Shown: one piece after another, positions 39,171 through 48,056 of the stretch
Position numbering within the stretch: the stretch's first letter is position 1
Layout: each line of letters opens with the position of its first letter
Source: Qipengyuania nanhaisediminis
GTDB taxonomy: Bacteria; Pseudomonadota; Alphaproteobacteria; Sphingomonadales; Sphingomonadaceae
Reading direction: 5' to 3'
NCBI RefSeq assembly: GCF_900115585.1
Contig: NZ_FOWZ01000001.1
Location: 372,001 to 436,000 of the forward strand
DNA: 64,000 nucleotides
The notes under the pieces: generated by a model
What the model was told of the DNA's origin: nothing
Database searches by the model: none
Seen by the model: only the letters and a program-made list of their open reading frames with translations
Program-made: the position numbers and the translations under genes

Positions 39171-40175
39171 ATGAGCACAACGCCCGAATGGATGATGCCG
39201 CCCGAATGGGCCCCGCAGGACTGGCTGTGGATCGGCTTTCCGCACGACCCGCAGGAATGGCCCGAAGTCCTGCCAAGGGCGCAGGAGCAGATCGCGGCCT
39301 TCGCCAATGCCGTGGCCGATTGCGGGCAGGAAGTCCGCCTGCTGGTGCGCGACGACGCGAACGAGGCGCGCGCACGGCAGCTGGTCGGCGCGAACGTCAC
39401 GCTGGAGCGACGTCACTACGGCGATGTCTGGCTGCGCGACACCGGGCCGCTGGTTGTCTCGAACCGCGATGGCGAGCGTGCGGCCCGCCGCTTCGGCTTC
39501 AACGGCTGGGGCGGGAAGTACCTGATGGACGGCGACCAGACCGTCGGCGCGCAGCTGGCCGCGGACGAGGGCCTGCCGCTGCAGACGGCGGACTGGATCC
39601 TCGAAGGCGGCGCGGTGGATGGCGACGGGACCGGCCTCGTCGCGACGACCGAGCAATGCCTGCTCAACCCCAATCGCAATCCGCAGCTCTCGCGCGACGA
39701 GATCGAGCAGCGTCTCGAACGCGATCTCGGCTTTACCGGCGTGCTGTGGCTCGGCGACGGGTTGATCAACGATCACACGGACGGCCATGTCGACAATCTC
39801 GCCCGCTTCGTTGCGGCCAACACGCTCGTCATCCCGCGCGCCACGGGCAGCGCAGATCCCAATGCGGAGATATATGCCGATGCGCGCCGCCGGGCGGAAG
39901 CGGCTGGCGTTTCGGTGGTCGAAATCCCCTCGCCCGGCCTCGTGACCAGCGGCGACCATGTCGAGCCGGCGAGCTACGTGAATTTCGCCATTACCAGCCA
40001 CCTCGTCGTGGTGCCCACCTTCGACAGCTCGTACGACGAGGAGGGCGTGGCGGCGATCGGCGCGCTGTTCCCGGATCGCGCGACTATCGGCCTGCCGGGC
40101 GATGCCGTGCTAGCAGGCGGCGGCGGCTTTCACTGCGCCAGCCAGCAAATGCCCTCTGCCGGATGGAAGCCTTAA
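39171..40175 (+). CDS. Agmatine deiminase family protein
   Basis: The 334-residue pentein-fold hydrolase has the catalytic elements WILEGGAVDGDG, NDHTDGHVDN and the nucleophile Cys in GGGFHCASQQ (about residue 322). The family converts agmatine to N-carbamoylputrescine in polyamine synthesis; some members use peptidyl-arginine or related guanidino substrates. The gene appears monocistronic, starting shortly after the flotillin terminator. No N-carbamoylputrescine amidase is visible nearby. Confidence 0.92.
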   Translation: MSTTPEWMMPPEWAPQDWLWIGFPHDPQEWPEVLPRAQEQIAAFANAVADCGQEVRLLVRDDANEARARQLVGANVTLERRHYGDVWLRDTGPLVVSNRDGERAARRFGFNGWGGKYLMDGDQTVGAQLAADEGLPLQTADWILEGGAVDGDGTGLVATTEQCLLNPNRNPQLSRDEIEQRLERDLGFTGVLWLGDGLINDHTDGHVDNLARFVAANTLVIPRATGSADPNAEIYADARRRAEAAGVSVVEIPSPGLVTSGDHVEPASYVNFAITSHLVVVPTFDSSYDEEGVAAIGALFPDRATIGLPGDAVLAGGGGFHCASQQMPSAGWKP

Positions 40176-40209
40176 CGCTTCGTTAGGGTTTGGCCGCGAG
40201 AATGGCGGC

Positions 40210-40338
40210 ATGGCAAAGGCTATCGCTCTCGCACGCACCCACGTCCCGGCATTCCCGCTGGCAGAGGCTGCGCGCGCGCTTATCGTGAGCGGATGCGGCT
40301 TCGCCCTGGTCCTCGCCGGACCGGCGCTACCCTTCTAA
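40210..40338 (+). CDS. Possible 42-residue small protein
   Basis: The ORF reads MAKAIALARTHVPAFPLAEA and continues into a hydrophobic C-terminal segment ending GPALPF. It overlaps the 3' end of the convergent TauE gene by 12 bases. A good ribosome-binding site is lacking. It may be chance coding; listed because it fills an otherwise empty 150-base gap. Confidence 0.25.
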   Translation: MAKAIALARTHVPAFPLAEAARALIVSGCGFALVLAGPALPF

Positions 40339-41067
40339 CAGTTTCCAGACCGCACCGGCTGCCGCGCCGCCCAGCACGAGGGCGACGCTCACCTGCCATT
40401 GCCGCGGCGTCACGCGCCCGAACGCCGCGTGGCCCATGAGATCGCCGACCAGCACCGCCGGAAAGAGCAGCAGGGCAAGCAGGACCTCGCGCATCCCGCC
40501 GACGCCGAGCGCGATGAACAAGGCAGATGATAGCGGCGTCAGCACCAGGAAAATCGCCATCATGGATGCGCGCGCCTCGCGCGGGGGCAGGCGGCCGCGC
40601 AGGTAGAACGGCGCCATGCCCGGCCCCGGCATTCCCGCGAACCCTCCGAAAAAGCCCGTGAAAAAGCCCGACAGCCCCATGGCAGGCTTGCGCGGCATGG
40701 CGATCTTGCCGAGCGGCACCACCACCAGCACGAATGCGCCAAGCGACACGAGAGCGATCAGGAGCCGCGCCCAATCCGCGCTCAGCGTGACGAGCGCCCA
40801 CAGGCCAAGCGGCATGAAGGCCAGCGCCAGCAGTGTGATCGGAATGGCCGAACGGTCGGCTTCGCGCCGGATGCGCCCGATGTCGGTCAGGCCGATCAGG
40901 AATAGCGAGATATTGCCCACTAGTACCGCTTCACGCGGAGCGATGGTCAGCGCGAGGACGGGCACGATCACGACCGACAGTCCGAACCCGGCAAGCCCGC
41001 GCACGAAACCCGCCGCCAGCGCGGTTACCAGGGCAATGCCGATCGCTTCGAGGGACAGGCCGAGCAT
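40327..41067 (-). CDS. TauE/SafE family membrane permease (copy 2)
   Basis: This 246-residue protein has about eight transmembrane helices in two repeats. The family motifs are FVRGLAGFGLSVVIVPVL and GFFTGFFGGFAGMPGPGMAPFYL. TauE/SafE proteins export or import small anions such as sulfite, sulfoacetate or other organosulfonates; the substrate here is unknown. Its ATG abuts the stop codon of the preceding paralogue without any gap. Confidence 0.92.
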   Translation of the reverse strand: MLGLSLEAIGIALVTALAAGFVRGLAGFGLSVVIVPVLALTIAPREAVLVGNISLFLIGLTDIGRIRREADRSAIPITLLALAFMPLGLWALVTLSADWARLLIALVSLGAFVLVVVPLGKIAMPRKPAMGLSGFFTGFFGGFAGMPGPGMAPFYLRGRLPPREARASMMAIFLVLTPLSSALFIALGVGGMREVLLALLLFPAVLVGDLMGHAAFGRVTPRQWQVSVALVLGGAAAGAVWKLLEG

Positions 41068-41814
41068 CTAGGAGAATGCCTTCCACAAGGCTGCAAGAGC
41101 CGCTCCGCCGAGCACGAGACCGACGCAGATGCGCCAGGTCCGATCCTCGATCCTGCCCGACGCCTTGTTGCCCAGCCAGTTGCCCGCCAGCACGGCCGGG
41201 AACAGCAGCACGGCGAACAGGAGCAGCGACCAGTCGAGCACGCCGATGGCCGCCCCGCTGATCAGGCCCGTGCTCGATGCGCAGGTGAAGATCAGCAGCA
41301 TCGATGCCTTGGCGGTCTCGCGCGGAATGTCGCGCCCGACATAATAGGGGACGACCGGCGGTCCGGGCATGCCGGCATATCCCGTCATCAGGCCGCTCAA
41401 TATGCCTACCCCGCCGGTGGTCGCCGGATGATGCTCCAGCGCACCGCGACGTGGCAGCAGGATGGCGATGAAGGCGGAAAGTGCGATGAAGGCGATGACG
41501 ACGCGCGCCAGGGCAGGCGTGGTCACGCTGAGCAGGTACAGCCCCACCGGCGTGGTCAGCGCGACAAGCGCGATTATGACCCATGCCGACTTTTCCGCAC
41601 CGCGCAGCAGGCGGCGAATCTCCGTCAGACCGATGAAGACCGAAAGAAAATTGGTCAGCAGCACGGCATCGACCGGCGACAGCGCAAGCGCCAGCACCGG
41701 TACGATGAGGATCGCCATTCCGAACCCGGTCAGCCCGCGCACGAAAGCCGAGCCGAATGCAGTCACCAGCGCGGCGGCGATCGCTACCGCAGAATAGCCG
41801 CCGAACAGGTCCAT
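41068..41814 (-). CDS. TauE/SafE family membrane permease (copy 1)
   Basis: This 248-residue paralogue of the following gene has matching motifs FVRGLTGFGMAILIVPVL and GLMTGYAGMPGPPVVPYYV. The tandem pair looks like an old duplication because the two are clearly related but far from identical. It begins nine bases after the thrS stop on the same strand, so read-through from thrS is likely. Function otherwise as for its neighbour. Confidence 0.92.
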   Translation of the reverse strand: MDLFGGYSAVAIAAALVTAFGSAFVRGLTGFGMAILIVPVLALALSPVDAVLLTNFLSVFIGLTEIRRLLRGAEKSAWVIIALVALTTPVGLYLLSVTTPALARVVIAFIALSAFIAILLPRRGALEHHPATTGGVGILSGLMTGYAGMPGPPVVPYYVGRDIPRETAKASMLLIFTCASSTGLISGAAIGVLDWSLLLFAVLLFPAVLAGNWLGNKASGRIEDRTWRICVGLVLGGAALAALWKAFS

Positions 41815-41823
41815 CGCGCGCGC

Positions 41824-43842
41824 TTAGCCTTCGCGCAGGTCCGGCGGCGTGGCTTCGGCCTTGAGCATCGCAATCGCTTCTTCGAGCGGCATCACCTTCT
41901 GGTGCTGCTGGCCGAGCGTGCGGACAGCGACCATGCCTTCTTCCGCCTCGCGCATGCCCACCACCAGGAGGTGGGGGACCTTGGCGACCGAGTGTTCGCG
42001 GACCTTGTAATTGATCTTCTCGTTACGAAGGTCGCTGTCGACGCGGATGCCCGCCGCCTTGAGCTTGGCGACGGCTTCCTTGGCATAGCCATCGGCGTCC
42101 GAGACGATCGTCGCAACCACCGCCTGCGTTGGGGCGAGCCAGACGGGCAGTCGTCCGGCGAAGTGTTCGATCAGAATGCCGATGAAACGCTCGTACGAAC
42201 CGAAGATCGCGCGGTGCAGCATGACCGGGCGGTGTTTCTCGCCATCTTCGCCGATGAAGCTTGCATCGAGGCGCTCGGGCAGCACGCGGTCGCCCTGGAT
42301 CGTGCCGACCTGCCAGGTGCGGCCGATGGCGTCGGTAAGGTGCCATTCGAGCTTGGGCGCATAGAAAGCGCCTTCGCCGGGGAGCTCTTCCCAGCCGTAT
42401 TCCTCGTTCGCCATGCCCGCTTCGGCCACGGCGTCGCGCAATTCCTGCTCGGCCTTGTCCCAGTCCGCTTCGCTACCGAAGCGCTTTTCCGGGCGCAGGG
42501 CGAGCTTGACGTGATAGGTGAAACCGAAGTCGCGATAGACGCTGTCGGCCAGCTTGCAGAAGGCACGCACTTCCTCGACCACCTGGTCCTCGGTGCAGAA
42601 GATATGCGCATCGTCCTGCGTGAACTGGCGCACGCGCATGAGGCCATGCAGCGCGCCATGCGGTTCGTTGCGGTGGCAGCAGCCCATTTCGCCAAGGCGG
42701 ATGGGCAGTTCGCGATAGGACGTGATGCCCTGCTTGAAGACCAGCACATGGGCCGGGCAGTTCATCGGCTTGATCGCCATCCAGTCGGCATCGGGCGCGA
42801 CCGAGGGGTTCGCCGGACCATCACCCAGCTCGTCCACTTCGGGCACCATGTCGGGCACGGCAAACATGTTCTCGGCATATTTGCCCCAGTGTCCGGACTG
42901 CTCCCACTGGCGCACGTCCATCAGCTGCGGCGTCTTGATTTCCTGGTAGCCCGCACCGTCCATCTTGCGGCGCATGTACGCTTCGAGCTCACGCCAGATC
43001 ATGTAGCCGTTGGGGTGCCAGAAGACGCTGCCGTGCGCCTCTTCCTGCAGGTGGAACAGGTCCATCTCGCGGCCCAGCTTGCGGTGGTCGCGCTTGGCGG
43101 CTTCTTCCAGCCGCGTGAGGTGGGCGTTGAGCTGCTTCTTGTTGAGCCAGCCCGTGCCGTAGATGCGCGTGAGCTGCGGATTGTTCTGGTCGCCGCGCCA
43201 ATAGGCACCGGCAACGCGCGTCAGCTTGAACGCCTGCGGATCGAGCTTGCCGGTCGAGGCAAGGTGCGGTCCGCGGCACATGTCGAGCCAGTCTTCTCCC
43301 GACCAGTAGACCGTCAGTTCCTCGTTTTCGGGAAGTTCCTTGGCCCATTCGGCCTTGAAGACTTCGCCTTCCGCTTCCCACTTGTCGATCAGCTGCTGGC
43401 GGCTCCACACTTCGCGCTTGAGCGGCTTGTCGGCCTTGATGATGCGGCGCATTTCCTCCTCGATCGCGGGGAGGTCGTCCATCGAGAACGGCTCGCGCGT
43501 ATCGGGCGCCTTCACATCGTAATAGAAGCCATCGTCCGTCGCCGGACCGAAGGTGATCTGCGTACCGGGGAAGAGCGACTGCACCGCTTCTGCAAGGACG
43601 TGCGCGAAATCGTGGCGCGCCAGTTCCAGCGCGTCTTCCTCGTCGCGGCTCGTGACCAGCGCCAGTTCCGCATCGCCTTCGAAGGGGCGGTTGATATCGC
43701 GCAGCTCGCCATCGACGCGCGCGGCGATGGCGGCCTTGGCAAGGCCCGGACCGATCGCGGCGGCGACATCGGCAGGCGTGCTGCCGGGTTCCATCTCGCG
43801 CACCGAACCATCGGGCAGGCTGATCTTGAGCAGTTCCGTCAT
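41824..43842 (-). CDS. thrS: Threonine--tRNA ligase
   Basis: The 672-residue class II synthetase has a TGS domain (residues 1-62), a second editing domain with HDFAHVLAEAV and the Cys in DMCRGPHLASTGK, the catalytic core (motif 2 region GEMGCCHRNEPHGALHGLMRVRQF), and an anticodon-binding domain with VWLAPTQAVVATI. All catalytic zinc ligands appear present (for example PMNCPAHV). The 260-base leader upstream encodes a threonine-rich peptide and alternative hairpins, implying regulation by threonyl-tRNA level. Two permease genes follow closely. Confidence 0.97.
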   Translation of the reverse strand: MTELLKISLPDGSVREMEPGSTPADVAAAIGPGLAKAAIAARVDGELRDINRPFEGDAELALVTSRDEEDALELARHDFAHVLAEAVQSLFPGTQITFGPATDDGFYYDVKAPDTREPFSMDDLPAIEEEMRRIIKADKPLKREVWSRQQLIDKWEAEGEVFKAEWAKELPENEELTVYWSGEDWLDMCRGPHLASTGKLDPQAFKLTRVAGAYWRGDQNNPQLTRIYGTGWLNKKQLNAHLTRLEEAAKRDHRKLGREMDLFHLQEEAHGSVFWHPNGYMIWRELEAYMRRKMDGAGYQEIKTPQLMDVRQWEQSGHWGKYAENMFAVPDMVPEVDELGDGPANPSVAPDADWMAIKPMNCPAHVLVFKQGITSYRELPIRLGEMGCCHRNEPHGALHGLMRVRQFTQDDAHIFCTEDQVVEEVRAFCKLADSVYRDFGFTYHVKLALRPEKRFGSEADWDKAEQELRDAVAEAGMANEEYGWEELPGEGAFYAPKLEWHLTDAIGRTWQVGTIQGDRVLPERLDASFIGEDGEKHRPVMLHRAIFGSYERFIGILIEHFAGRLPVWLAPTQAVVATIVSDADGYAKEAVAKLKAAGIRVDSDLRNEKINYKVREHSVAKVPHLLVVGMREAEEGMVAVRTLGQQHQKVMPLEEAIAMLKAEATPPDLREG

Positions 43843-43928
43843 TCTATCCGTCCGTTATCCTGGCGCGGCCTCCCGTGACCGGCCTCGGTATGTCGAGGCC
43901 CATGGCACAGCTAGGCGCGCGCTTGAAG

Positions 43929-44031
43929 CGGCGTTTGTGAGAAATTCGATTTCGGGAGGAAACGCCGACCGCCCGAAACCGGGCGGCGGAGCGCTACGTC
44001 AGGACGCGCGCACCCGCCCCCGGCCGCCCGG
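43929..44031 (-). promoter_or_regulatory. Candidate thrS attenuator with alternative hairpins
   Basis: On the minus strand segment 1 (44031-44024, CCGGGCGG) pairs perfectly with segment 2 (43986-43979, CCGCCCGG). Segment 2 pairs equally well with segment 3 (43975-43969, CGGGCGG) to give a compact hairpin with a four-base loop. A further 8-bp pairing (43967-43960 with 43936-43929, CGGCGTTT and AAACGCCG) encloses a small inner stem at 43953-43941. Pairings 1:2 and 2:3 exclude each other. The hairpin lacks a clear T-run, so Rho or translation effects may complete the switch. Confidence 0.6.
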
Positions 44032-44070
44032 GGTGGTGGTGGTGGTTGTCGTGATGCGCTGATGCGTCAT
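43999..44070 (-). CDS. thrS leader peptide (23 aa, seven consecutive Thr codons)
   Basis: The ORF starts MTHQRI, continues with seven threonine codons (ACG ACA ACC ACC ACC ACC ACC) and ends PGGRGRVRAS before TGA. It recalls the Thr/Ile-rich leader of the enterobacterial thr operon, but sits upstream of thrS. Its stop codon lies 13 bases before hairpin segment 2. A ribosome stalled at the first Thr codons would leave segment 1 free, while one at the stop codon would cover it. A predicted promoter places the transcription start at or one base before the ATG, so the peptide may be leaderless. This explains the lack of a ribosome-binding site. Confidence 0.7.
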   Translation of the reverse strand: MTHQRITTTTTTTPGGRGRVRAS

Positions 44071-44077
44071 GCGCCAG

Positions 44078-44106
44078 GAGATAGCGACGACAGGTTAAAA
44101 TCTCAA
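44078..44106 (-). promoter_or_regulatory. Predicted promoter of the thrS leader
   Basis: Minus-strand TTGAGA (44106-44101) and TATCTC (44083-44078) are separated by 17 bases. The -35 element overlaps the stop codon of the upstream phosphatase gene. The expected start point is about position 44071-44070, where the leader ATG begins. Confidence 0.45.
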
Positions 44107-45767
44107 CCGAGATCGAGCGCGCGCGCTCCGGCAAGGGTTGAGAGGCGCTTCGTCGCGACGACTTCGGCCCCCTTCTCACGCACCGAGGACAGGAAGCGAT
44201 ATTCGCTCGTCGCACGCGTCGGCGTGAGTTCGACCGCCATGTAACCGCGGCGCGAGGCGTCCATCCATTTAAGCTCGGGATTGCGGGCGACCATGGCCGC
44301 GCTGACATCGCCGGGCGCCAATTGCGGCAAGTATCCCTCGAAGCCGGGCGAGGTGACCGACTGGCCGCCGAATTCGACGCCGACCTTCTCGCCCTCGTGG
44401 GCAAGGTCGAAAGCCCATGCGTTGTGGGTATCGCCCGCGAGGCTGACGAGATTTGCGTCCGCCGCAAGAGCCGCTTCGTAAAGACGGGCGCGGGCTGCGG
44501 GATAGCCGTCCCAAGCATCCATGTTGAGCGGCAGACCGGCGCGCGAGGCGATGGCGCCTGCGACCACGCGGCGCATGATGTAGTCTGGCAGTCCTTGCGG
44601 CAGGGCGTCGGTTAGCGAGGTGGCGGAGGCGGTCTTGCCCATCAGGACCTGCTGGACGAGCACCTGCCACGTCTTGCCGCCCTTGGCCGAGCGCATGAGA
44701 CCATTGCCGAGCCAGGCCTGCTGTGCGGCGCCGAGCACTTCGCGCGTGGGGTCGCGATAGCTCTCCTCCCGGAATGCGGTGAGGGCAGCGATGCCCTGTT
44801 CGGGAGAAGCCATTCCGCGCAGCAGCGTGCCGTAATCGAATTGCTGTGCGCGCGCCGACAGGCGGGTCTCCAGGCGGAACAGGGTCGCGAGATCGCCGAT
44901 CTCGTATTCGGCCCAGGGTTCATCCGAGACGGGCATCCATTCGCGATAGGCTTTCATGGCAGCGGCTTTGCGCACGCTCCATTCGCCTTCGGTCTCGCCC
45001 TGGTGGTTCTGCGCACCGCCTTCCCAGCTGTCGTTTGCGCTCTCGTGGTCGTCCCAGCCGGCGATCATCGGATAGATCTGGTGGATGCGGCGCAGGTCCG
45101 GATCGCTGCGATACTGGGCATAGCGCGCGCGGTATTGCGCAAGGGCCACCGTTTCGGATTGCGGATCGAGCGGAGCGCGGGTGCCGAGCCACTCGCTCTC
45201 CGAGGGGTAGGTGCCCTGGCCGTATTCGTAGAAATAGTCGCCTAGGTGCAGCGTGCAGTCGAACTCGTTCGCCGCGGCTGCGTGCGCGTAGGCGTTGAAC
45301 CAGCCGAAGCCTATGTTGGAGCAGGAGAAGACCGCCATCTTCCAGCGCGCGGTCGGTCCTTCAGGAAGGGTGCGCGTGCGACCGATATCGGAGTGGCTGC
45401 CGTCGGGCGCAGTGAAACGGAAGTAATACCAGCGACCCGGCGCGAGCCCGTCGGCCCACGGCTTGGCGCATCCGTCATTGGCGGGGCTCGCCGTGACGGA
45501 GCCCGATGCAATCGGGGAAGCGAAGGAAGCCGTCTCGCTCATCTCCCAGGTCAGCGGGACGTCCTGATCGGCTGCGTAACGCGTCCACAAAAGGACGCGC
45601 GAGGACCCCGGCTCTCCGCTGGCCACACCATGCGTGAAGCCGCGCGCGCCGCCGGCGGAAGACAGGGGCGCCGCAGCGAGACCTGCACCCAGCACCCCGC
45701 CCTTGAGCAATTGCCTGCGATCGAGCGGCAGGATCGGCGCAGTTACGGGCGGTTCGGTCTTTATCAT
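44103..45767 (-). CDS. phoD: Alkaline phosphatase D family protein (PhoD type), Tat-exported
   Basis: This 554-residue phosphodiesterase/phosphatase starts with a Tat-type signal (LDRRQLLKGG, hydrophobic stretch, SSAGG). The metallophosphoesterase domain follows with GVASGEP, FSCSN, LHLGDYFYEYG, GWDDHESAND and SLAGDTHNAW, which hold the Fe/Ca ligands. It acts in the periplasm to release phosphate from organic esters. The ATG at 45767 has GGAGG and AGGA elements upstream; a 43-residue extension is not supported. No Pho box could be identified confidently. Confidence 0.93.
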   Translation of the reverse strand: MIKTEPPVTAPILPLDRRQLLKGGVLGAGLAAAPLSSAGGARGFTHGVASGEPGSSRVLLWTRYAADQDVPLTWEMSETASFASPIASGSVTASPANDGCAKPWADGLAPGRWYYFRFTAPDGSHSDIGRTRTLPEGPTARWKMAVFSCSNIGFGWFNAYAHAAAANEFDCTLHLGDYFYEYGQGTYPSESEWLGTRAPLDPQSETVALAQYRARYAQYRSDPDLRRIHQIYPMIAGWDDHESANDSWEGGAQNHQGETEGEWSVRKAAAMKAYREWMPVSDEPWAEYEIGDLATLFRLETRLSARAQQFDYGTLLRGMASPEQGIAALTAFREESYRDPTREVLGAAQQAWLGNGLMRSAKGGKTWQVLVQQVLMGKTASATSLTDALPQGLPDYIMRRVVAGAIASRAGLPLNMDAWDGYPAARARLYEAALAADANLVSLAGDTHNAWAFDLAHEGEKVGVEFGGQSVTSPGFEGYLPQLAPGDVSAAMVARNPELKWMDASRRGYMAVELTPTRATSEYRFLSSVREKGAEVVATKRLSTLAGARALDLG

Positions 45768-45858
45768 CGAATAGGTCCTCTCTCCTCCTTCCATGACTGC
45801 GCCGGATGGCAGGCAGATGACAAGTAGAAAGAGGTGATGGAAAGGACAGTCGCCAACT

Positions 45859-45876
45859 TGTAAAGCAACCTTGACT
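45859..45876 (+). promoter_or_regulatory. Imperfect inverted repeat overlapping a -35-like element
   Basis: TGTAAAG and CTTGACT (five of seven complementary) are separated by CAAC. The right half contains TTGACT, a plausible -35 sequence for the small-membrane-protein/HTH operon. This could be the operator of the HTH protein encoded at the end of the operon. Confidence 0.35.
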
Positions 45877-45928
45877 CTAATGCCTCGACATGACAAACAC
45901 CCTTTACACCAAGAAAAGGATGCTTGTC

Positions 45929-46114
45929 ATGAAATCGCTACCTCCTCCCGTTTTGCTAGCCTTATCCATGTTGGGCGTCGCCTTGCTGGGGAATGCTGGC
46001 GTGCTGCCGGGCACGGTCGCACAGCTCGCCCCCTTCCTGCTGCTCGTCCTCTTCGCCCCGGTCTGGCTGGGCGACGATCGTCCCTGCAGGTTTTCGAGAG
46101 GAACGGCCCGATGA
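45929..46114 (+). CDS. Small membrane protein, first gene of an HTH module
   Basis: This 61-residue protein has two hydrophobic helices (PPVLLALSMLGVALLGNAGV and LAPFLLLVLFAPVWLG). The ATG at 45929 is preferred because AAAAGG lies seven bases before it; in-frame ATGs at 45890 and 45920 would lengthen the N-terminus. The stop overlaps the next gene (ATGA). No family is recognised. Confidence 0.65.
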   Translation: MKSLPPPVLLALSMLGVALLGNAGVLPGTVAQLAPFLLLVLFAPVWLGDDRPCRFSRGTAR

Positions 46115-46689
46115 CTGCTCGAACGCACATCAGGGGGCGCCCCGGACTGTGGGTCGGCCTGTTCTTCGCCAGCGCGGGCGTCATCATCGCGCTGCGCCTT
46201 AGCGGAGCTATCGAAGAGCCCGTGGGCTTCATCCTGCTCGCACTGTCGATGGGCCTGATGATCCCGTTCAACAAGGCAATGAAGAACAGTGCCTGCACCT
46301 ACAGCGAGGCCATGGACGTCTACAACCGGCGCATGATGGTGTGCAGCATTGGCTATGTCCTGGGCCTTGGGATCGCCATTGTCTTGTGGCGCAATTACGA
46401 ACTGGCCGACTGGACGGTCTTCGCGCTCACCTTGCTCCCGATCCTGCCGACCTTCGGGATGATCTGGGCGATGGCACGATACCTTAAGGAAGAGAGCGAC
46501 GAATACCTGCGTCACAAGTCCATGATGGCATCGCTGGCAGCGCTCGGCTTCGTGCTGGCGCTCGGTATCTTCTGGGGCTTCCTCGAGATGTTCGGCCTCG
46601 TCCCGCATATCTGGGCGTGGTGGGTCCTCCCCGCCTGGGCCATCGGACTTGCCGGGGCGCAGCTGTGGCAGAAGGTCAGGGGCGCATGA
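46111..46689 (+). CDS. Multi-pass membrane protein of an HTH module, unknown function
   Basis: This 192-residue protein has about six transmembrane helices, for example LWVGLFFASAGVIIALRL, VGFILLALSMGLMIPF and SIGYVLGLGIAIVLW. It has a charged loop KEESDEYLRHKSMM. It overlaps the preceding small gene and the following HTH gene, each as ATGA, so all three are co-translated. Membrane proteins coupled to YozG-type HTH regulators are common, but their ligand or function has not been established to my knowledge. Confidence 0.8.
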   Translation: MTARTHIRGRPGLWVGLFFASAGVIIALRLSGAIEEPVGFILLALSMGLMIPFNKAMKNSACTYSEAMDVYNRRMMVCSIGYVLGLGIAIVLWRNYELADWTVFALTLLPILPTFGMIWAMARYLKEESDEYLRHKSMMASLAALGFVLALGIFWGFLEMFGLVPHIWAWWVLPAWAIGLAGAQLWQKVRGA

Positions 46690-46877
46690 AGAACCGCCTC
46701 AAGGTGCTGCGCGCAGAGCGCGACTGGAGCCAGCAGGACCTTGCCGACCGGCTCGAAGTCAGCCGCCAGTCGGTCAACGCCATCGAAACAGGGCGTTACG
46801 ACCCGTCGCTGCCGCTGGCATTCAAAATTGCCGATGTATTCGGGACACAAATCGAAGATATATTCCAGCGCGACTGA
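46686..46877 (+). CDS. Short XRE-type helix-turn-helix regulator
   Basis: The 63-residue protein is essentially one HTH domain (KNRLKVLRAERDWSQQDLADR…VSRQSVNAIETGRYDP…FGTQIEDIF), typical of the YozG/HTH_3 mini-regulators that often repress or activate their own operon. It is translationally coupled to the membrane protein upstream. A candidate operator lies at 45859-45876. Confidence 0.92.
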   Translation: MKNRLKVLRAERDWSQQDLADRLEVSRQSVNAIETGRYDPSLPLAFKIADVFGTQIEDIFQRD

Positions 46878-46970
46878 CCCTTTGCCTTGACTTGCGGGCC
46901 CCTGCTTTGAAAAACCGGACACGGACGGGTTTTCGATTACAATTTTTACAAGCGGGGGGTCGCTCACAAT

Positions 46971-48056
46971 ATGGAACAGGCACCGATCGAGGCGGAAAGC
47001 GCCTTCGGTTTCGACGGCAATTGGCAGGACTTCGCAAAAATCGCGTTCCCGAACCTGTTGCTGACTATCGTTACGCTGGGAATTTACCGCTTCTGGGCGA
47101 CCACGCGAGAGCGGCAATACCTTTGGGCGCATAGCCGCTTCGTGGACGAGCGTCTCGAATGGACCGGCACCGGCAAGGAACTGTTCGTCGGCTTCGTGCT
47201 GGTTTTCATCCTCTTCATTCTCCCGCTTTCGCTGTTCAGCTTCGTCCAGCAGGGCCTGATCGCCCGCGGGTACGAAGTGGTGGCGATGGTTTTGACCTTC
47301 GTAATCTTCTTCGGCTTCTTCTATCTCACCGGCGTCGCGAGATTCCGCGCGCTGCGGTATCGCCTGTCGCGCACGCGCTGGCGCGGCATCCGCGGGGGCA
47401 GCAACCATCAGGGCTTCCGTTATGGCTTGTCCTATATGTGGAAGACGATTGTCGGCTACATCCCGCTCGGCCTGCTCGTGCCATGGTCGATGACCAGCCT
47501 GTGGAACGAGCGCATGCGCAAGATGAGCTTCGGCCCGCACGAGTTCGATGCCCATGCCGACAGCTCCAACGTCTTCGCGCGCTACCTCCTCTTCTATCTC
47601 GCCCCGATCATCTTTTTCATCGGCGGGATCGCGGCGGGCGCGATGGGAATGATCGCCGGACAGAGCCTTGGCGGCGACCAGGGAGCCGGCATCGGCATGG
47701 TCGGCGCGGTGGTATTCCTGGTCCTGTTCTTCTACCTCGGCCTCGGCCTGATCGCCGTGGCGTTCTTCGCGAAATTCTATCGTGAAGTCGTCGGCAGCAC
47801 GACCTGGGGCAACCTCAATTTCAGCTTCGAAGCGTCCACCATGGACTGGGTCAAGCTGCTGATCGTGGATGCGCTGCTGGTGGTCTTCACCGCCGGCATC
47901 GGCTTCATCTTCCTGAGCTATCGCCACTGGAAGTTCTTCATGGTGCACCTTGAAGCCAATGGCGAAATCCTGCTCGACGAACTCACCCAGTCGACCACGA
48001 CCACCGCCAAGCACGGCGAGGGACTGCTGGACGCGTTCGACATAGGCGCGATCTGA
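46971..48056 (+). CDS. DUF898 (YjgN-like) membrane protein
   Basis: This 361-residue protein has about eight hydrophobic helices and the DUF898 signature TLGIYRFWATTRERQYLWAH near the N-terminus. It is repeated in form near the C-terminus (TAGIGFIFLSYRHWKFFMVH). Function is unknown. It is directly followed, after one base, by an M48 peptidase gene, a conserved partnership in proteobacteria that suggests joint action at the inner membrane. Confidence 0.92.
   Translation: MEQAPIEAESAFGFDGNWQDFAKIAFPNLLLTIVTLGIYRFWATTRERQYLWAHSRFVDERLEWTGTGKELFVGFVLVFILFILPLSLFSFVQQGLIARGYEVVAMVLTFVIFFGFFYLTGVARFRALRYRLSRTRWRGIRGGSNHQGFRYGLSYMWKTIVGYIPLGLLVPWSMTSLWNERMRKMSFGPHEFDAHADSSNVFARYLLFYLAPIIFFIGGIAAGAMGMIAGQSLGGDQGAGIGMVGAVVFLVLFFYLGLGLIAVAFFAKFYREVVGSTTWGNLNFSFEASTMDWVKLLIVDALLVVFTAGIGFIFLSYRHWKFFMVHLEANGEILLDELTQSTTTTAKHGEGLLDAFDIGAI

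Follow-up and report, generated by a model that had tools for sequence, protein, structure and literature searches.

The DNA upstream of the threonyl-tRNA synthetase gene thrS in the window (the whole 64,000-nt stretch that was analysed) probably encodes a ribosome-mediated attenuator of thrS that senses Thr-tRNA, a reading to which we assign a probability of about 80%. Its computed support consists of conservation, the reading frame, codon bias, coevolving and mutually exclusive helices, and linkage to thrS.

A threonine-rich leader ORF upstream of thrS

The elements that define the locus are as follows.

43999..44070, minus strand: leader peptide ORF MTHQRITTTTTTTPGGRGRVRAS, 23 codons, putatively leaderless
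44032..44052, minus strand: run of seven Thr codons, the presumed sensing codons
41824..43842, minus strand: thrS, threonyl-tRNA synthetase (Pfam tRNA-synt_2b, HGTP_anticodon, TGS, tRNA_SAD), the presumed regulated gene

The initial annotation had described an ORF of 23 codons upstream of thrS, seven of them Thr codons in a row, and the ORF is present as described. On the minus strand (44070-43999), Thr is encoded by codon 2 and, consecutively, by codons 7-13. Its neighbours are a gene for a phoD-like phosphatase (45896-44103, Pfam PhoD) and thrS (43842-41824), the latter separated from the end of the leader ORF by 156 nt. Two tandem permease genes of the TauE/SafE family (40327-41814, minus strand) lie directly 3' of thrS, the first of them at a distance of 9 nt. 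Of 80 loci, 59 have a relative of this first permease on the downstream side of thrS, and the attenuator may therefore cover an operon.

Conservation was judged from 81 upstream regions, consisting of the window and the best 80 of 585 named thrS loci, a choice that makes the sample one of close relatives. The closest named thrS matches among these best 80 were Qipengyuania aestuarii (94%) and Erythrobacter vulgaris (95%). A short Thr-rich ORF precedes thrS in 50 of the 81 regions, and 31 are without a leader. The leader is 22-24 codons long in 48 of the 50 and contains 5-12 Thr residues, while the N-termini of the peptides are variable. With a strict definition (ATG ORF of 10-40 codons, at least four consecutive Thr, within 330 nt of thrS), 46 of the 81 regions carried such an ORF, whereas 60 dinucleotide shuffles averaged 0.03 per 81.

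The longest Thr runs of the 50 leaders contain 180 ACC, 48 ACT, 36 ACG and 16 ACA codons, and the two alternative frames across the runs give mixed residues. This variation in the third base, together with the mixed residues in the other frames, points to selection on threonine. ACT and ACA account for 64 of the 280 run codons, versus only 2 of the 58 Thr codons in the window's thrS plus phoD.

Promoter-like elements on both sides of the leader

Two pairs of promoter-like elements were recognized.

44101..44106, minus strand: P1 -35 element TTGAGA, overlapping the phoD-like gene upstream at its stop codon
44079..44084, minus strand: P1 -10 element CTATCT, separated from the leader ATG by 8 nt
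43923..43928, minus strand: P2 -35-like element CTTCAA, directly adjoining helix B (see below)
43900..43905, minus strand: P2 -10-like element CCATGG

P1 reads TTGAGA-N16-CTATCT in the window. An NTGA element near -35 occurs in 45 of the 50 leaders and [CT]TAnnn at -10 in 46; when aligned on the leader ATG, 43 leaders have both elements, versus 1.6% of 3240 control positions. A Shine-Dalgarno-like tetramer precedes the leader ATG in just 2 of 50. The spacing of P1 would place the transcription start at the A of the ATG and so probably make the leader mRNA leaderless, a type of message that is common in Caulobacter (375; PMC4117421).

The pattern CTTnnn-N17 followed by a -10-like word was found at 39 of the 50 leader loci and at 19 of the 31 loci without leader, against 0.8 per 81 in shuffles, where the word list was chosen after viewing the sequences and the shuffle was mononucleotide, so that the peak at spacer 17 and not the exact count is the evidence. 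A spacer of 16 occurs at 11 leader loci and 3 loci without leader, a spacer of 18 at 0 and 4, and spacers of 13-15 or 19-21 at 0 or 1. We read P2 as a second promoter that was kept where the leader was lost. The -10 variants in relatives are CCATGG, CTAAGG and GCAAAG, possibly a common form of the sphingomonad housekeeping promoter. Scans with E. coli-type consensus sequences gave no sigma-70 promoter here.

Alternative helices in the leader RNA

The segments that can pair, listed in part by overlapping roles, are the following.

44028..44033, minus strand: segment a, CCCCGG, overlapping the last Thr codon and able to pair with the start of segment b
44014..44023, minus strand: segment b, CCGGGGGCGG, candidate antiterminator 5' arm within the leader ORF, encoding RGR (assessed by codon usage)
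43979..43989, minus strand: segment c, CCGCC(G)CCCGG, pairing with b (10 bp, one bulge) or with d
43980..43987, minus strand: hairpin A 5' arm, GCCGCCCG, with compensatory GC/AU exchange
43968..43975, minus strand: hairpin A 3' arm, CGGGCGGT, identical to segment d (assessed by swap test)
43972..43981, minus strand: helix X 5' strand, CGGTTTCGGG, overlapping the loop and 3' arm of A
43947..43956, minus strand: helix X 3' strand, CCCGAAATCG, within the loop of B
43960..43967, minus strand: helix B 5' arm, CGGCGTTT, with compensatory exchanges (e.g., UA 25/CG 20 and UA 21/CG 15)
43929..43936, minus strand: helix B 3' arm, AAACGCCG, candidate stem of a terminator, with CTTCAAGC (a weak U-run) after it

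Minimum free energy (MFE) folding of the whole leader gave an ordinary value in comparison with shuffles (z -1.17, with 25 of 200 folding equally well), and single-sequence folding alone is therefore no evidence. Pairing was examined in a structure alignment of 49 of the 50 leaders, omitting L046, which is without A and B. Swap tests, which need no alignment and are inflated by relatedness, were done in two versions. The first used 44 of the 49 leaders (L021, L030, L037, L042 and L056 were dropped as the anchor pattern is absent), reduced to 36 by removal of near-duplicates; the second, with better anchors, used 32 of the 49 sequences.

Helix X is the clear case among the apparently coevolving helices in these tests. 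It pairs a CCGGTTTCGGG-like with a CCCGAAAYCGG-like sequence; some of its bases also belong to A, and the 5' arm of B lies inside it. Native strands gave -14.9 kcal/mol and swapped strands -12.4 kcal/mol, and 0 of 2000 permutations of the 36 dereplicated sequences were as good. In a search for the best stem 3' of the leader stop codon, X ranked first in 22 of 49 sequences and the rest had other stems, mostly A. In a MAFFT alignment (A2) only 66.5% of the X cells are paired because the loop of B is misaligned, and the swap tests were used instead.

The seven outer pairs of hairpin A are 96.8% paired in the alignment, and 1 of 2000 permutations was as good in the test with better anchors (32 sequences), versus 83 of 2000 in the first test. 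The result for helix B was modest (29 of 2000, first test). For A and B together, 56 cells had both sides changed, versus 27.4 after shuffling, and two-sided change occurred in 9 pairs versus 5.5 (3 of 500 shuffles). Of all A and B cells, 86.3% are paired, as compared to 82.2% in shuffles and 33-57% in slid versions, over which the structure is favoured by having been taken from the window's own sequence. For further pair types in A plus B there was no excess over shuffles (82 of 500).

Helix b:c consists of 10 bp around one bulged purine; 91% of its cells pair standardly in the alignment, and its swap tests were modest (21 of 2000 permutations as good in the first, 52 of 2000 in the second). 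Coevolution of a:b was not significant in the two swap tests (144 and 674 of 2000). Its pairing is possible by eye and by duplex energy, and we retain this helix only as a possible one that lacks coevolution support.

Segment b is distinctive in its codons. RGR is present in 39 of the 50 leaders, where CGG makes up 77 of 78 Arg codons and GGG 35 of 39 Gly codons. CGG provides 2 of 88 Arg and GGG 4 of 110 Gly codons in thrS and phoD of the window taken together, a comparison of leaders from many species with just two genes of the window. Since RGR is written in locally rare codons, conservation in segment b appears to act on nucleotides rather than on amino acids.

These results refine what had been proposed from the letters alone. 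The annotated Thr leader with mutually exclusive helices before thrS is conserved and covaries across genera, as the alignment test suggested at that time asked. Both of its pairings exist in the window, the 8-bp one between 44031-44024 and 43986-43979 (CCGGGCGG/CCGCCCGG) and the 7-bp one between 43986-43980 and 43975-43969. However, among the 49 aligned leaders the arm 44031-44024 occurs as such in the window alone, and we rejected it as a conserved antiterminator arm; the adjacent 44023-44014 is conserved instead. The 7-bp hairpin, which corresponds to A, is borne out as a covarying pairing but loses its role as the decisive stem, with X competing with A and B and the GC-rich 5' arm of B that follows it being part of a better terminator candidate.

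Folding as a function of ribosome position

We modeled the effect of translation by folding the RNA ahead of a ribosome, the front edge of which was assumed to lie 13 nt past the first base of the A-site codon. The model covers 42 of the 49 sequences, counts a helix if at least four of its pairs are expected, and describes equilibrium folding with kinetics ignored. The numbers of sequences (n = 42) that formed each helix were as follows.

X, before the B 3' arm is made: ribosome at last Thr codon 37, at first Thr codon 23, at stop codon 7, no ribosome 12
Hairpin A, before the B 3' arm is made: last Thr 4, first Thr 5, stop 25, no ribosome 13
B, full RNA: last Thr 9, first Thr 29, stop 39, no ribosome 26
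X, full RNA: last Thr 19, first Thr 4, stop 1, no ribosome 5

For the full RNA of the window, X has 9.6 expected pairs and B 0.2 with the ribosome at the last Thr codon, versus 0.0 and 7.6 at the stop codon and likewise 0.0 and 7.6 at the first Thr codon. The counts thus support a switch set by a ribosome that sits over segment a towards the end of the Thr run, and in the model the mutually exclusive helices depend on ribosome position. The initial annotation had considered a stall at the first Thr codons sufficient. At that position the modeled switching is weak, with B still forming in 29 of 42 sequences, and the first Thr codon was set aside as switch point in favour of the last.

Proposed mechanism and alternatives

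According to the proposed mechanism, transcription from P1 would start at the leader AUG, and translation of the 23-codon leader would begin at the extreme 5' end of the message. When Thr-tRNA is plentiful, the ribosome would reach the stop codon and cover segment b, allowing c to fold with d into hairpin A and helix B to form, which is predicted to end transcription before thrS. When Thr-tRNA is short, the ribosome would stall late in the Thr run and cover segment a. Segment b could then pair with c, freeing d to pair with its downstream complement in helix X, which would enclose the 5' arm of B and prevent B from forming, and RNA polymerase would continue into thrS. P2, just after B, would provide a basal level of thrS mRNA.

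Of the leader helices, B is the best candidate for a terminator. Hairpin A was thought unlikely in that role, since in the alignment it is succeeded by the GC-rich 5' arm of B. A scan of the leader for canonical terminators found none. In 43 of the 49 leaders, the 8 nt after B contain on average 2.7 T, versus a background of 1.4, and at least four T are present in 6 of the 43.

The step from helix B to its effect is where the most serious alternative enters. The same sensor might have another output: in place of intrinsic termination at B, stalling could govern termination by Rho, decay of the RNA or interference with P2. Such an output would suit a helix that is not followed by a good U-run and that directly abuts the -35-like element of P2. 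Nevertheless, B has compensatory changes, its formation tracks ribosome position in the folding model, the T content after it is about twice the background, and a terminator (GGAGGGTTTTTT) stands at the corresponding place in 7 of 8 leaders of another family (f72, see below). We therefore hold a different output to be unlikely, though worth keeping in mind, and prefer attenuation at B.

The short RNA or peptide released by attenuation could also act in trans on other genes, like rnTrpL/peTrpL of Sinorhizobium meliloti, which the leader resembles in that the RNA starts at the leader-ORF ATG (PMC7298713). The variable N-termini of the leader peptides argue against this, and the codons of the conserved RGR indicate that RNA pairing accounts for it, which makes trans action improbable.

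In E. coli, autoregulation by ThrRS acts on translation. Control of thrS translation by sequestration of its start site would have a precedent there, as E. coli ThrRS regulates its own expression (PMC2965389), but the window's helices stop 86 nt short of the thrS start, from which a promoter-like element separates them, and we give this possibility very little weight.

That the Thr repeat is coincidental or part of an ordinary small protein, with helices due to chance in a GC-rich region of unexceptional MFE, is hardly credible in view of the 46 regions versus 0.03 in shuffles, the covariation of the helices, the codon constraint in segment b and the presence of thrS next to the leader in 67 of 67 loci examined.

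Distribution and loss of the leader

A covariance model (R1) built for the candidate attenuator matched 132 of 397 genomes of the window's family (35 of 96 genera), 127 of 396 genomes (22 of 84 genera) in a sample of the order that overlaps this one, and 4 of 385 genomes in a sample of the class, each count including the window's own genome. All matches in the order and class samples fall in the window's family, with one match per matching genome. The counts are lower bounds, since the search uses stricter filters above 40 genomes and the Thr leader at L218 (genome G155) was missed by R1. All 67 R1 loci examined, including that of the window, have thrS downstream and a Thr-rich ORF; 47 of these loci were returned by searches and 20 were picked mainly among weaker matches.

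Orthologous thrS regions lacking the ORF had been named beforehand as an observation that would speak against an attenuator. They make up 31 of the 81 regions, while the other 50 have the leader. L014 has no leader ORF, yet upstream of thrS a stretch similar to the B 3' arm persists beside P2, which suggests secondary loss of the attenuator. At L071 and L080 the phoD alignment runs to within 41 and 46 nt of thrS, too close for a leader to fit in between, and a deletion is probable. L046 has a Thr leader ORF 119-50 nt upstream of thrS with A and B missing and a P2-like region close behind the stop codon, and represents either a natural deletion or an assembly error. The 31 regions without leader and L046 without A and B imply that the device is dispensable.

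Thr leaders in other alphaproteobacterial families

Thr-rich ORFs were also searched for outside the family. A class-wide scan of 60 thrS upstream stretches, drawn from 121 genomes with thrS and including one stretch of just 210 nt, flagged 4, of which 3 are convincing. A scan of 40 stretches from the order flagged 3, with one convincing case (L218, in the window's family). In the families to which the three convincing class-wide cases belong, 8 of 9 usable thrS loci were flagged in f72 (L250, L252-L258), 13 of 30 in f73 (within L300-L329) and 2 of 28 in f58, where the one convincing case is the original match. The scans for Thr ORFs picked up L155, L211, L247 and L272, which look like chance.

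An example leader from f72, MTARTTTTATTTRTSCGGP, has CTTGACA and GATATT elements 7 nt before the ATG, and GGAGGG also occurs at the end of its ORF. The terminator found in 7 of 8 f72 leaders has a strong U-run. An example from f73 is MDRMFFPAPTTLTTVRT. In most f72 and f73 leaders the promoter is positioned for near-leaderless transcripts. Plain MFE folds of seven leaders of the f72/f73 type did not consistently replace the terminator under stalling. Peptides and hairpins in f72 and f73 differ from those of the window. This suggests independent origins for the Thr leaders that precede thrS in at least two further alphaproteobacterial families.

A wider view would be that leaderless Thr-codon attenuators of thrS arose several times independently in Alphaproteobacteria, and that the sphingomonad version governs RNA polymerase through a cascade of five helices, lacks a U-run terminator of the classical kind and abuts a second promoter, the stalled ribosome setting both read-through and which promoter feeds thrS. 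We offer this view tentatively and consider it doubtful in its entirety.

Comparison with known systems

Judging by its title, a 2010 paper by Lopatovskaya et al. is reportedly a comparative survey on attenuation of aminoacyl-tRNA synthesis operons, which may include thrS. No description of a thrS leader peptide in Alphaproteobacteria was found in the titles and abstract openings of the literature matches listed, in a search that largely covered papers free of subscription. We regard the element as a well-supported, conserved candidate attenuator that follows a known general principle, with a target and layout for which this search returned no description.

The E. coli thr and his operon attenuators have alternative RNA helices and a short leader ORF in which cognate codons follow one another, and the his leader forms an either/or cascade of several helices. 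The present element is alike in these respects, especially to the his cascade. It differs in that its target is a synthetase gene and not biosynthesis, that it probably has no Shine-Dalgarno sequence, that B is without a good U-run, and that a second promoter-like motif follows. Rfam includes a Thr_leader family, and here there is no Rfam match: a scan of 40000-48000 up to E 5 gave three unrelated low-scoring matches and neither Thr_leader nor T-box. Synthetase control relies on T-boxes in Firmicutes and, in E. coli, on autoregulation by the enzyme. With the predicted device, a large group of environmental bacteria gains a candidate tRNA-charging sensor for an essential synthetase. As the leader is probably leaderless, it offers a natural test of whether leaderless translation is coupled tightly enough to RNA polymerase for attenuation. 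The differing Thr leaders before thrS in at least two more families suggest convergent evolution of the same control.

Partial parallels exist in several bacteria. Bacilli have histidine leader peptides before hisS paralogues, which share the cognate codons before a synthetase-family gene and differ in belonging to Firmicutes and in using His (PMC2965389). Leaderless polycysteine short ORFs attenuate downstream genes in mycobacteria (Canestrari et al., 2020, as cited in PMC9031893); these are also leaderless short ORFs with a run of one residue, but with Cys and in actinobacteria. The trpL/rnTrpL attenuator of S. meliloti is likewise alphaproteobacterial with an RNA that starts at the leader ATG, and differs in its Trp codons, its trpE(G) target and its trans-acting products (PMC7298713). 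Caulobacter crescentus has a translated small leader CDS before trpS, also an alphaproteobacterial small CDS before a synthetase gene, although the gene is a different one and the accessible text gives no mechanism (PMC4117421). The nearest case in accessible sources is the uORFC-8-2 motif upstream of cysS in Rhodobacterales, a predicted leader-peptide attenuator (PMC8632094). Like the element described here, it is a predicted attenuator of an aminoacyl-tRNA synthetase gene in Alphaproteobacteria; it differs in having Cys codons, two stems and a U-run at the 3' end, and in belonging to another order and another gene.
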